This document shows, piece by piece, positions 17,149 to 31,968 of a stretch of DNA of 62,248 bases. A program made the position numbers and the translations under genes. The stretch is from Sulfuricella sp. T08 (GTDB lineage: Bacteria; Pseudomonadota; Gammaproteobacteria; Burkholderiales; Sulfuricellaceae): positions 1 to 62,248 of the forward strand of contig NZ_DF967548.1 of NCBI RefSeq assembly GCF_000971475.1, written 5' to 3'. Numbering within the stretch: position 1 is the stretch's first letter; every line of letters starts with the position of its first letter. The notes below the pieces were generated by a model that did no database searches, was not told the DNA's origin, and worked only from the letters and a program-made list of their open reading frames with translations.

Positions 17149-17223
17149 CTCTCTGGTGTTTGGATTCAAGTTTTTTGCACTATCGGTTTCGCCGTTTGCA
17201 GTCTTGGAATTCAGGCATTTTCG

Positions 17224-17242
17224 CGGGATTTCCCGTTTTTTT
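17224..17242 (+). promoter_or_regulatory. Terminator-like hairpin in the cold shock leader
   Basis: CGGGA/TCCCG (17224-17235) is followed by seven T. It lies about 20 bases before the start codon, inside the proposed leader. It could be a temperature-dependent attenuator; the stem is short. Confidence 0.4.
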
Positions 17243-17262
17243 ATTAGCAAGGGACTACGTAA

Positions 17263-17466
17263 ATGGCAACTGGTACTGTAAAATGGTTTAACGATTCCAA
17301 GGGTTTCGGCTTCATCACTCCGGACGACGGCAGCGAAGATCTGTTCGCGCACTTCTCCGCGATTCAGATGGGCGGATTCAAAACCCTGAAAGAAGGTCAA
17401 AAGGTGCAGTTTGAAATCACCCAAGGCCCCAAGGGTAAGCAAGCTTCCAACATCCAAGCCGCCTAA
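17263..17466 (+). CDS. CspA-family cold shock protein
   Basis: 67 residues, one cold shock domain. RNA-binding motifs RNP1 (KGFGFI) and RNP2 (LFAHFS) are intact. It acts as a single-stranded nucleic acid chaperone. A ribosome site GGGA lies 10 bases upstream. The gene is monocistronic with a strong terminator after it. Confidence 0.97.
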
Positions 17467-17486
17467 GTATTAGCGCTTGAATGCTA

Positions 17487-17517
17487 CGCCCCGGAGCCAC
17501 GGCTCCGGGGCGTTTTT
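17487..17517 (+). terminator. Intrinsic terminator of the cold shock gene
   Basis: A GC-rich stem (CGCCCCGGAG / CTCCGGGGCG) with a 6-base loop is followed by TTTTT. It lies 21 bases after the stop. Confidence 0.93.
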
Positions 17518-29336: not shown

Positions 29337-30173
29337 ATGAAATCGCCTGACAAATCCGAACCCCAGGAATTGCGCCAAGCGGCGCTGTTCTGGCTGTCAC
29401 AGCCGGACCCCGCCCGCAAAGCCGAAGGGGTGCGCCTCTTGGCGCGAGCATGGCAGTCTGGTGAAGTCATGCTGGACGCACAAGCCGGATTGTCGGCGTC
29501 ATCTCCCATACCCGGCCAGCCGCTCAAGCCCGAACTGGTATCGCCGCGCCTGGTCAAGCACCGCTCGATGAACACCCTGGAGGGTCGCGCCATCTTGATC
29601 CATGCCTTGGTGCACATCGAGTTCACGGCCATCAACCTGGCGCTGGATGCACTCTGGCGATACGCAGGCATGCCGCGCGAATATTACGCGGACTGGCTAC
29701 AGGTCGCGCAGGAGGAAGCACTGCATTTCTCCCTGCTTGCAGACCACTTGCACGAACTAGGCTACGCCTATGGTGATTTTCCGGCGCATAACAGCCTGTG
29801 GGAGATGGCGGCCAAAACCCAGGACGACATCCTGGCCCGCATTGCGCTGGTGCCCCGAACCATGGAGGCGCGCGGACTGGATGCCGCCCCGCCGGTGCGG
29901 GCCAAGCTTGCCCAGGTGGGCGACATGGCCGCCGCTGCGATCCTCGACATCATCCTGCGAGATGAAATTGGTCACGTCGGCATCGGCAACCGCTGGTATG
30001 GATGGCTGTGCGAGCAACGCGGCCTGGATCCGGTAAACACCTATGCCCGCCTGGCCGCCGAGTACCATGCGCCGGTCATGCGCGGTCCGTTCAATCTTGC
30101 AGCGCGACGAGCAGCGGGTTTTAGTGAGGTGGAATTGGCTGCGTTGAATTTGTGCGCTTCGCGGGTTGATTGA
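29337..30173 (+). CDS. DUF455 ferritin-like protein
   Basis: 278 residues. The central helices carry a ferritin-like di-metal ligand pattern: HIEFTAINL, QEEALHFSLL and RDEIGHVGIG. Relatives are annotated as DUF455 (some resembling the MiaE-type hydroxylase fold); the reaction is unknown. There is no signal peptide. Its TGA is followed within 3 bases by the structured element at 30176. Confidence 0.85.
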   Translation: MKSPDKSEPQELRQAALFWLSQPDPARKAEGVRLLARAWQSGEVMLDAQAGLSASSPIPGQPLKPELVSPRLVKHRSMNTLEGRAILIHALVHIEFTAINLALDALWRYAGMPREYYADWLQVAQEEALHFSLLADHLHELGYAYGDFPAHNSLWEMAAKTQDDILARIALVPRTMEARGLDAAPPVRAKLAQVGDMAAAAILDIILRDEIGHVGIGNRWYGWLCEQRGLDPVNTYARLAAEYHAPVMRGPFNLAARRAAGFSEVELAALNLCASRVD

Positions 30174-30175
30174 TT

Positions 30176-30727
30176 GCCGGGGGCAGCCCGGCGGCTGATT
30201 ACCTTTCTTGCTTCGCCAAGAAAGAGTAATCCAAAGAAGGCGACGCCCATCCACCGCCCCTTCGGGGTTCCCTGCGCTGCTCGCCGAGCCGGGTGGCTGC
30301 GCAACTCGCCCTAGCAGGGCACACAAACCGTGCCCTGCCGCGGAGCTCAAACAGTGCTCGCCGACTGCCCCCGGCCCGGCTGTGCTGCTCGGCGGCGAAT
30401 CAAGGGGACGAAAAGCAAAACAAAACCGCCCCACCCAGCCCTCCCCAACGGGGAGGGTATCTAAACATGGGCTTTGCCCACAAGACCCAAATCCCCTTCT
30501 GCACCGCTTCGGTTTGACGGACAAATTGGGATGAAGGCGAGCACTGTTCGAGCTCCGCAACAGCTTGCGGTTTGGGCAAGCTGTCAGGGCGAGTTGCGCA
30601 GCCGCCCAATTTGACCGTCAAACCGAAGGTAGCCCGCAGGGCCGGCGCGGCAGGGTGCCTTTTTGTTTGGTTACTTGTATTTTGGGCAATGCAAAATAAA
30701 GTAACCTGCTGCCGGGCAGCCCCCGGC
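30176..30727. repeat. Twin-copy inverted structured element, non-coding
   Basis: 552 bases. The ends (30176-30195 and 30708-30727) are inverted, 18 of 20 matching. Copy A reads on plus (30176 to about 30400), copy B on minus (30727 to about 30507). They share GGCTGCGCAACTCGCCCT and GCGGAGCTC(A/G)AACAGTGCTCGCC. Between these islands both have a 9-bp stem with a 7-base loop; loops are alike (ACAAACC, CCAAACC) but stems differ completely (GCAGGGCAC in A, ACAGCTTGC in B). Other hairpins change in the same compensating way. Frames called in this stretch are artefacts. Confidence 0.85.
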
Positions 30728-30907
30728 ATCAAAATATCTGCGCGTAGCGCACACAAGACCTATCACTCCTTGTAACAACCTGAACAAACACCTATAGTGG
30801 CCCAATTGTCATAAAACGCACAGCAGATATCTAACATTCCAACACAAGATTTAATCGTGTCTGGCTCCTTTGATCTTAGGATGCACACTAGAAGGCGAAA
30901 ATCGCAA

Positions 30908-31363
30908 ATGGCAGCGCAAGATACAGACAGTTCGTCTCACCACGTCCAGGAAGCGTGGGATTGGCTGTCCGTGAGCTGCGACGCTGCGACGCGTGCGGAA
31001 TCTCGCTTTCGGAATCTATTCAACAAGATTGCGCAGCGAGGCATTGATGAGGCGCGTCGCGAAAACCCTGCCCAACCGAGTCTCGTCGACCTCAGGGACA
31101 TACATTTTCAGCCTACGGAAGAGGAAAAGCAGCAACTTCGAGATGCCTATCTCGAATGGCAAGCATTCAAGATTATTTGGGCAGAAAAAGAAGAAGCATA
31201 TAGTTTTGTCAAGGATACTGGGAGGCCTTTCTCTGCTTCAGAAAAAGCGAGCCGCGGCGTCGACGAGGCGAAGTTGAAATTATTGCAATTCTTTGTAAAG
31301 CCCGCTTTTTATATCCTCGTAACGATTGCTGCGTTAATTGTTATCGCACATGCCACCATCTAA
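30908..31363 (+). CDS. Hypothetical tail-anchored protein (integron-cassette-like gene)
   Basis: 151 residues from ATG 30908; a GTG at 30857 and ATG 30881 are in frame, but the GTG lies in the repeated GTGTCTG motif. The body is soluble, helical and charged (HHVQEAWDWLSVSCDAAT). It ends in one membrane helix (about 128-149, FYILVTIAALIVIAHATI). No family recognised. Lower GC and different composition than neighbours. The stop codon lies inside the R'' box of attC site 1, as is usual for integron cassettes. Confidence 0.7.
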   Translation: MAAQDTDSSSHHVQEAWDWLSVSCDAATRAESRFRNLFNKIAQRGIDEARRENPAQPSLVDLRDIHFQPTEEEKQQLRDAYLEWQAFKIIWAEKEEAYSFVKDTGRPFSASEKASRGVDEAKLKLLQFFVKPAFYILVTIAALIVIAHATI

Positions 31364-31446
31364 CCCAACGCCCACATGGGCGCGCGGCCAATGCCGCGCC
31401 AAGTTCGGGTATCATGTGCATGCTCCGATAGGCGTGAATGTTAGAG
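31358..31446 (+). mobile_element. attC-like integron recombination site 1
   Basis: R'' ATCTAAC (31358-31364) and R' GTTAGAG (31440-31446) are complementary. Inside them L'' ACGCC and L' GGCGT pair, with spacers CCA and GAAT giving the extra unpaired base typical of attC. Further inward CACATG pairs with CATGTG. Length 89 bases. The order gene-stop then attC, and a new gene 14 bases after R', fits a cassette junction. Confidence 0.75.
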
Positions 31447-31453
31447 GACACCG

Positions 31454-31828
31454 GTGAGCACCGTTGCAAACGAGGCGCACGAGCTTATTGCAGAGGCTGG
31501 AATGTCCGCATTTCGGCCAAGGGAAGCTGCGTACTCGTACGCAGCTTCCCCTACAGCCATCTTTCCGACGGAGCTCATCCCAATTGTCCAAGTCTTGCCA
31601 TTGGTCCGCGGAGCTGGAGTCCATAATTTCGTCAGAGGTCGTGCACTAAGCATTCTCGAAGCAATCGAGAGAAACCAGCCACTCCCGCCAGTCCACGTAG
31701 ATCGATCGAGAGCGCTAGCCGAACCATTTCGATTTCGCCTGTACGACGGCTTTCACCGATATCACTTGTCTGTGGCCTTAGGCTTCACGCACGTATGGGC
31801 ATACGTCAATCCATCCACGGAGCCATAG
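31454..31828 (+). CDS. ParB-like small protein (integron-cassette gene)
   Basis: 124 residues from GTG 31454, only 8 bases beyond the attC site. The second half has a ParB/Srx-type pattern: ILEAIERNQPLPPVHVD, then RLYDGFHRYHLSVALGF (compare DGxHRxxA). Such domains bind DNA or nucleotides (CTPase/kinase-like). There is no HTH, so it is not a partition protein. Codons for EAAYSYAAS lie in a perfect 30-bp palindrome. An attC-like site follows its stop by 4 bases. No toxin or antitoxin partner was recognised. Confidence 0.7.
   Translation: MSTVANEAHELIAEAGMSAFRPREAAYSYAASPTAIFPTELIPIVQVLPLVRGAGVHNFVRGRALSILEAIERNQPLPPVHVDRSRALAEPFRFRLYDGFHRYHLSVALGFTHVWAYVNPSTEP
31521..31550. repeat. Perfect 14-bp inverted repeat inside the cassette gene
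   Basis: GGGAAGCTGCGTAC and GTACGCAGCTTCCC are separated by TC. All 14 pairs match although the sequence is coding. Confidence 0.95.
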
Positions 31829-31832
31829 TGCC

Positions 31833-31902
31833 TTCTAACCCTTCCATCGAGCAGACAGCCCACGGCTTGCCGTGAGCTGTCTGCTCATGTCAAACGTTGA
31901 CG
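31833..31902 (+). mobile_element. attC-like integron recombination site 2
   Basis: TTCTAAC (31833-31839) follows the gene stop. An 11-bp stem (GAGCAGACAGC 31849-31859 / GCTGTCTGCTC 31876-31886) with an inner CACGG-CTTG-CCGTG forms the hairpin. The end CATGTCAAACGTTGACG resembles the L'-R' side of attC (usually AAACGTTRRRY). The R' box is degenerate, as expected at the end of an array. 70 bases. Confidence 0.6.
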
Positions 31903-31968
31903 CTTTAGAAAAAACTTTTTTCTCCATTTTCAGAATAAATCCCCCAAATAATTAATGGGGTCAGCGTG

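Follow-up and report, generated by a model that had tools for sequence, protein, structure and literature searches.

A twin inverted multi-hairpin element of Sulfuricella sp. T08 as a probable empty copy of a transposase-less mobile DNA unit

The window analysed here, a stretch of 62,248 nucleotides from Sulfuricella sp. T08 (NCBI RefSeq assembly GCF_000971475.1, contig NZ_DF967548.1), contains at about 30154 to 30753 a twin element that consists of half A, a 58-bp spacer and an inverted half B, plus an outermost small hairpin on the left. The twin looks like an empty copy of a two-ended element that is repeated in the source genome, and this element is probably a transposase-less mobile DNA unit with folded inverted ends that are able to hold a gene. 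If so, it would be a widespread vehicle for spreading accessory genes in Betaproteobacteria which is undescribed in the literature searched, its ends would represent a new type of DNA end in which shape and loop pairing are conserved, and its passengers could be listed in any genome by the rule of two facing units located 0.7-3 kb apart. It is also possible, though this is put forward far more tentatively, that these units form a cassette system of their own in which accessory genes are captured, moved or exchanged by a putative enzyme that reads the shape of single-stranded DNA together with the loop pairings, a lone tip being the scar of excision. The preliminary description of this DNA was made from the window alone and could not see that the twin halves look like two ends which enclose genes elsewhere.

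The twin in the window is bordered by a DUF455 gene (29337-30173) on one side and a small ORF at 30857 on the other, and its parts are given in Table 1. Two divergent inverted halves with stems that differ in sequence yet still pair had been described previously, and every feature was recovered at the position given for it; the short and terminal hairpins of both halves can be read directly in the sequence, and the outer stem of B is 96% paired. The inner hairpins are likewise present as described, but the long form is only one variant, with a short inner hairpin in its place in six of the eight A halves and two of the eight B halves of the source genome. The extent proposed initially (30176-30727) was too narrow, as in the genus both ends continue outward through a GCGC-NNN-GCGC hairpin. 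Inverted arms in the window pair 30291-30362 with 30536-30607 (72 nt, 79% complementary) and 30175-30205 with 30698-30728 (31 nt, 84% complementary). The folding z score is -4.1 for 30190-30460 when computed as DNA and -13.7 for 30165-30735 when computed as RNA, values that speak against a fold due to chance. Open frames on the minus strand at 30041-30304 and 30400-30756 read through the halves and have no Pfam match, and frames running through such ends may be annotated as hypothetical proteins elsewhere.

Table 1. Parts of the twin element in the window, with positions, strand and the basis of each assignment
Feature	Position	Strand	Basis or remark
Outermost small hairpin H0, left end, GCGC-TTC-GCG	~30154..30163	+	sequence
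Half A (left end unit)	30164..30425	+	profile match 196 bits; BLAST copies
H1 hairpin of A, GCCGGG-GGCAG-CCCGGC	30176..30192	+	loop CAG 30184-30186 covaries with CTG 30195-30197
H2 terminal hairpin of A	30197..30231	+	loop TCGCC 30213-30217 covaries with GGCGA 30239-30243 (helices 3 and 4)
H3 short hairpin of A	30257..30267	+	sequence; covariation (helices 5 and 6)
Core of A: outer stem 30286-30293 with 30370-30377 around two conserved islands	30286..30377	+	folding; covariation (helices 7 and 8)
Inner hairpin of A, variable module, GCAGGGCAC/loop/GTGCCCTGC	30314..30338	+	sequence; covariation
Inner edge of A, CAAGGGGA; CAGGGGA in other taxa	30401..30408	+	loci comparison; at other loci, flank homology ends and the enclosed gene region starts near here
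Short spacer between halves	30426..30483	.	elsewhere 755-2974 bp with at least one ORF in 22 of 119 facing pairs
Half B (right end unit), in the opposite orientation to A	30484..30753	-	profile match 155 bits
Core of B: 24-bp outer stem 30507-30530 with 30605-30628, inner hairpin 30560-30584	30507..30628	-	sequence; inverted-arm match
H3 short hairpin of B	30632..30642	-	sequence
H2 terminal hairpin of B	30669..30706	-	loop GGCA 30685-30688 can pair with TGCC 30656-30659
H1 hairpin of B	30711..30727	-	sequence comparison
Outermost small hairpin H0, right end	~30740..30750	-	sequence comparison

In BLAST searches of the source genome (3.42 Mb), half A matches 15 places and half B gives 28 rows, which together amount to eight whole A...B pairs of about 500-660 bp and a few partial pieces. 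All eight pairs are facing and have their parts in the same order. At four other loci B is present as a whole copy that is 91-97% identical to B of the window, and the B ends across the eight pairs are mostly 88-97% alike. Within a locus, A and B are 71-82% alike at 17 loci of the genus, and a simple sequence label finds the two types represented once each at all 17. They are thus two sub-classes and not a recent duplicate, and A and B are two lasting end types.

Half B was matched in 25 of 61 genomes and a Gallionella-type half in 117 of the 399 genomes of the order at 1e-8, the source genome being included in both counts. A pattern scan of named genomes gave at least 119 stretches. Among the matches listed, 71 of 119 loci carry a unit of at least 100 bits and are counted as the family; 58 of these are labelled Betaproteobacteria, 10 Pseudomonadota without a class, two Gammaproteobacteria and one Chitinophagia. 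Matches of the pattern scan in Nitrospirales, Bacteroidia and other groups mostly cover the short core only (about 20-90 bits) and were left out of the family. The family is found mainly in Betaproteobacteria, and the genome searches and pattern scan support the wide occurrence in Beta- and a few Gammaproteobacteria that the preliminary description had suggested. One half-unit type (L178) has no match in phage records and one weak match in plasmid records, and one viral contig is present among the matches of the pattern scan.

Conservation of the fold was evaluated with an alignment of 64 halves that are less than 88% alike, 149 of the 213 strong units having been dropped as at least 88% alike to a kept one. 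In a structure of 42 pairs, pairing is observed in 89.6% of cells, compared with 76.5% in shuffles, and changes on both sides are seen at 33 of the 42 pairs, compared with 21.6 for shuffles. None of 500 shuffles reached either observed value, a significance which is overstated by the shuffles because related rows are not independent. Pairing falls to 53% when partners are slid by one column, a control that favours the structure because the structure was written from these same sequences. The fold is conserved through compensating changes, as the proposal of selected folding had anticipated, and the compensatory substitutions in homologues, whose lack had been named as a possible refutation, are present across the 64 halves.

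The loops of H1 and H2 are engaged in pairings outside their own hairpins. The H1 loop covaries with the bases just 3' of H1 (TAG/CTA, CAG/CTG, CTG/CAG, TTG/CAA, CCG/CGG and TGG/CCA), and in this helix (helix 2) all three pairs have changed on both sides and 96.3% of cells are paired, with 15 of the 64 rows, which have a different H1 and gaps at two of the three loop pairs, set aside there. The H2 loop covaries with a downstream stretch (TCGCC/GGCGA, CGGC/GCCG and TGGC/GCCA), where 84% of cells pair and three of the five pairs have changed on both sides. Loop complementarity for own versus swapped partners is 2.58 versus 1.91 (sd 0.07) and 4.77 versus 3.87 (sd 0.09), meaning that swapping of partners lowers it by about 9 and about 10 standard deviations. 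The inner hairpin has 51 different sequences in 63 units (one of the 64 was not extracted) and is still a stem, its pairing being 3.41 bp compared with 1.40 (sd 0.14) on partner swapping.

Stem cells include 60 G-U versus 83 A-C combinations. Since G-U is not commoner than A-C, folded DNA, in either strand, is favoured over RNA transcribed from the A strand, and the comparison points to ends that are selected to fold as DNA and not as RNA. A structured RNA, or a transcription terminator or insulator between genes, would account for the strong hairpins, the intergenic location at a median of about 90 bp to the next ORFs and the very stable RNA fold, but such a role is most improbable given the G-U count and several other observations. 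Over the element, Rfam gives no family at the gathering threshold and nothing convincing in a loose search with E up to 5 (the best match has E 0.34), and facing pairs with a gene between them would be left unexplained. Around 69 empty pairs, the neighbouring genes show the arrangement that chance would give (36 tandem, 17 convergent and 16 divergent), which argues against a terminator role. The regulatory RNA that was among the roles first suggested finds no backing in the Rfam comparison at gathering, the G-U count or the arrangement of flanking genes. A bidirectional terminator was considered as a separate candidate and rejected for want of a convergent preference, convergent genes flanking 17 of the 69 empty pairs and 7 of 16 gene-bearing pairs.

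The arrangement of units relative to each other was analysed in 239 non-redundant loci, which remained after removal of 45 of 284 loci as duplicates; the rows of L049 and L155 were left out of the search profile, and the pair and gap counts include weaker units with E up to 1e-3. Of 135 cases of neighbouring units less than 3 kb apart, 119 are facing, nine have the same direction (one '++' and eight '--') and seven are back-to-back. The gaps of the 119 facing pairs are bimodal, as 97 are 10-293 bp in length, none falls at 294-754 bp and 22 are 755-2974 bp. Paired units account for 200 of the 275 units of at least 100 bits and single units with at least 2 kb of visible inner flank for 49, while contig or locus ends leave the other 26 without an assignable pairing state. 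The halves occur mostly as facing pairs that are either nearly empty or hold a gene.

When ORFs of at least 90 aa are counted, 17 of the 22 long facing pairs hold one, and two are present inside L109, L159 and L252 and three inside L251 and L169. Interior GC is below that of every measured outer 1-kb flank in 20 of the 22 pairs, with L169 and L248 as the exceptions. L169, a weak Nitrospirales match with an opposite GC trend, and L251 are less clear cases. The 22 gene-bearing pairs are not independent in that 19 come from Gallionellaceae/Nitrosomonadales-type genomes (L107 being assigned by synteny), including four from G287 and three from G169; the other three are L016 (a viral-contig record), L049 (from the family of the source organism) and L169.

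The enclosed ORFs number 29, and the Pfam scan covered 21 of them and the PADLOC scan 22; the ORFs inside L251 and L169 and a short one in L252 were left out. Eight of the 21 proteins reach the Pfam cut-off, with matches to DUF2971, RelA_SpoT (twice), 8xMP, Mrr_N, LprI, AAA_15 and DUF7225, and other enclosed proteins have no Pfam family; no transposase family was found among the 21. DUF2971 is enclosed in L016 and, as two ORFs of which one is just below the cut-off, in L159. RelA_SpoT is found in L115 and L253, 8xMP together with a second small protein in L109, Mrr_N in L160, an LprI/HEPN-like protein (at or below cut-offs) in L197, an AAA_15 ATPase in L249 and DUF7225 in L049. Control scans used 40 of the 52 listed flanking ORFs, and in Pfam these flanking proteins include many products of core genes, such as ZapD, ArgJ and TsaD, as well as a phage integrase and a protein kinase. 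PADLOC models match five of the 22 enclosed proteins at 1e-5, among them the candidate-defence families PDC-S31, PDC-S33 and PDC-S67. The 40 flanking proteins match 44 PADLOC families (families, not proteins, being counted), including PDC-S07 in two proteins and kinase models, and since flanking proteins match as well, no enrichment for defence is claimed and a defence bias of the enclosed genes is only a lead.

Seven matching sites with different interiors were found in related genomes. Both flanks are common in L115/L178, L107/L261, L159/L257/L179 and L160/L268 (with L246 on one flank), and one flank is common in L252/L262, L104/L247 and L197/L245/L141; that just one flank is common at these three sites is due in part to contig ends. 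At such sites homology usually runs from the flank into one unit and stops near the inner edge of that unit. A site beside zapD and a second conserved gene was compared at 10 loci, namely L197 and nine f24 genomes, one of them (G169) with a match to a record labelled 'uncultured Gallionellaceae', and two gene-holding pairs, one empty pair, one lone tip and six loci with none were observed. At this site the pairs of G169 and L197 hold different genes, the empty pair is that of G287, and the lone tip, in G384, consists of an H1 palindrome and its two outer tails. A second site is occupied by a gene-holding pair in L107 and by a single unit in G133, and the remaining eight have no unit there. G362 is a congener of G287, and in it the flanks on either side of the G169 element lie 10 bp apart.

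No unit is present at the window's site in G005, where the flank homologies of the two sides are about 90 bp apart. Compared with G005, the window has about 1.8 kb extra (30148-31961) between the DUF455 gene and a YgjP-like gene, made up of the twin and two small ORFs (30857-31363 and 31454-31828) outside half B. GC is 0.51 over 30760-31960, and the location of these AT-richer ORFs outside B counts against the cassette reading. In G011 a lone H1 palindrome flanked by both tails occupies the site, and about 0.9 kb further on, at the contig end, there is a partial unit. Single H1 palindromes with both tails occur at six places, five of them in the genus of the source organism (three in G002, one each in G007 and G011) and the sixth in G384, and these may be scars of loss or starting sites. 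The solo units L261 and L257 are located at sites that bear a gene-bearing pair in a relative; they can be read as the loss of one end with the gene or as the first step of capture. A RelA_SpoT gene with 82-85% DNA identity lies between or beside units at three sites in three genomes, and these sites have no flank homology across the 1.5-2.3 kb compared; the L262 contig ends before a second unit and both L253 units are partial.

Many units are found at matching sites in related species, which suggests that movement is slow, and same-site units at four sites are 82-97% alike. Such observations could also be explained if the element were a fixed chromosomal platform in which the halves remain in place, serving as conserved homology arms or as a docking site, and homologous recombination with incoming DNA exchanges only the gene between them. 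The homology that runs from the flank through one unit to stop near its inner edge, with different genes beyond at several sites, would be expected of such a platform, as would the similarity of same-site units and the many sites common to related species. A fixed platform is nevertheless rather unlikely, as genomes of one genus (G287 versus G362) differ at one site in having a whole pair or none, the source genome has eight pairs with B ends that are mostly 88-97% alike, and the three RelA_SpoT copies have no common outer flank in the DNA compared. In addition, homology arms need no selection for hairpins and loop pairings.

The preferred reading, that of a transposase-less mobile unit, supports the non-autonomous transposable element that was one of the options raised in the preliminary description, and it invites comparison with known systems. 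In MICs the ends are short terminal repeats that belong to a known IS, and target duplications are present. Like MICs and gene-carrying MITEs, the element described here has inverted ends without a transposase inside (119 of 135 facing) and may hold a passenger gene (22 of 119 facing pairs), but its ends are about 245 bp of covarying hairpins, and no target duplication was found in 61 pairs with H1 at both ends, where direct repeats beside the ends are not in excess (longest repeat 5.52 for own versus 5.69 for swapped ends). No autonomous parent element with matching ends was encountered among the loci that were read. Integron cassettes are single AT-rich accessory genes next to attC sites that are able to fold as single-stranded DNA. 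The enclosed genes resemble them in being single AT-rich accessory genes beside sites foldable as single-stranded DNA, but the sites here are inverted rather than direct (119 facing versus nine same-direction), and the attC core RYYYAAC/GTTRRRY was found in none of 64 units in a simple motif test that reached up to 45 nt from the unit ends. IS200/IS605-type ends are in direct orientation and have one hairpin each, with a short tag that pairs with another site. Hairpin ends and base pairing of a short tag with another site are features common to these ends and the units described here, which differ in being inverted and having many hairpins.

The units also resemble REP, BIME and REPIN sequences associated with RAYT (TnpA-REP) in that they are palindromic, intergenic, paired in inverted orientation and folded as DNA, with a GNNG loop that may be tag-like; they differ from these in that the half-units are much longer, copy number is low, genes are present between the halves and Y1 is not required. 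The repeats treated in PMC3733652 are 20-40 bp long and of the GTAG and CGTC kinds, with tag variants such as GYAG and GTRG. The H1 loop follows the pattern GNNG, its many variants covary with downstream sequence, and it is suggestive of the variable GTAG tag of REPs; it might be asked if the units are REP- or REPIN-like palindromic repeats that a Y1 (RAYT) transposase moves in trans. This idea would fit the single H1 palindromes that bear both tails, and Y1 genes occur in G000 and 41 of 60 relatives; in L268 a 180-aa Y1 (RAYT-like) gene (2271-2810), with REP-like repeats alongside, lies between a conserved flank and a lone unit. Five Y1 regions of the source genome that were read, however, contain only stray 8-base motif matches and no recognised full H1 or H2, and three of the five have other REP-like repeats beside the gene. 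Units of about 245 bp, with eight pairs here, also contrast with hundreds of 20-40-bp palindromes, and G005 has many units and no Y1 match; an origin of this kind is considered quite unlikely. As a candidate mobiliser, Y1 transposase is not supported, given that no full H1 or H2 was recognised at the five Y1 genes read and that G005 has no Y1 match. In the search for a mobilising enzyme, which was limited to Y1 transposases, no Y1 match was found in the unit-bearing genomes G005, G047, G056 and G057, the first of which is 99% complete and has 10 unit matches.

In the mechanism proposed for the mobile unit, two inverted multi-hairpin ends of about 245 bp, each composed of H1, H2, H3 and a stem-loop core, would fold as DNA, and the loops of H1 and H2 would also be able to pair with sequence that lies downstream of the respective hairpin. 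The space between the inner edges could hold foreign DNA, in most cases a single gene, and the two folded ends and their content would move or be exchanged as one unit. The fold and pairings, the gene between the ends, presence and absence at one site and the same gene family at unrelated sites are observations. Beyond these, an enzyme supplied in trans presumably recognises the ends, perhaps as single strands, and moves the unit, and excision may leave the lone H1 palindrome with both outer tails as the scar of unit loss. Core strings of the element were not found in a literature search that covered open papers, subscription papers and preprints being outside its coverage, and within the same coverage a search by topic, which extends to titles and the starts of abstracts, gave none describing the element. 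A search of passages in PMC10969869 gave no match to the terms sought.

Some copies of the element are accompanied by additional sequences. A second repeat (like GTAGCCTGGATGGAGTGAAGCGGAATCCGGGG) is present just outside the B end in the outer flanks of L009, L013, L014, L053 and L067, all from the genus of the source organism. A similar extra piece of about 54 nt occurs at the same place of the core in the right halves of L013 (B-type) and L021 (A-type), which belong to two genomes; this looks like the entry of a small element or the swap of a module. The left halves of L044 and L059, from genomes of two bacterial families, have an extra hairpin-like module of about 60 nt directly after H2. 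Elsewhere in the window, the sole Rfam match at the gathering threshold is a cspA thermoregulator RNA (RF01766) at 17198-17516 (84.8 bits).
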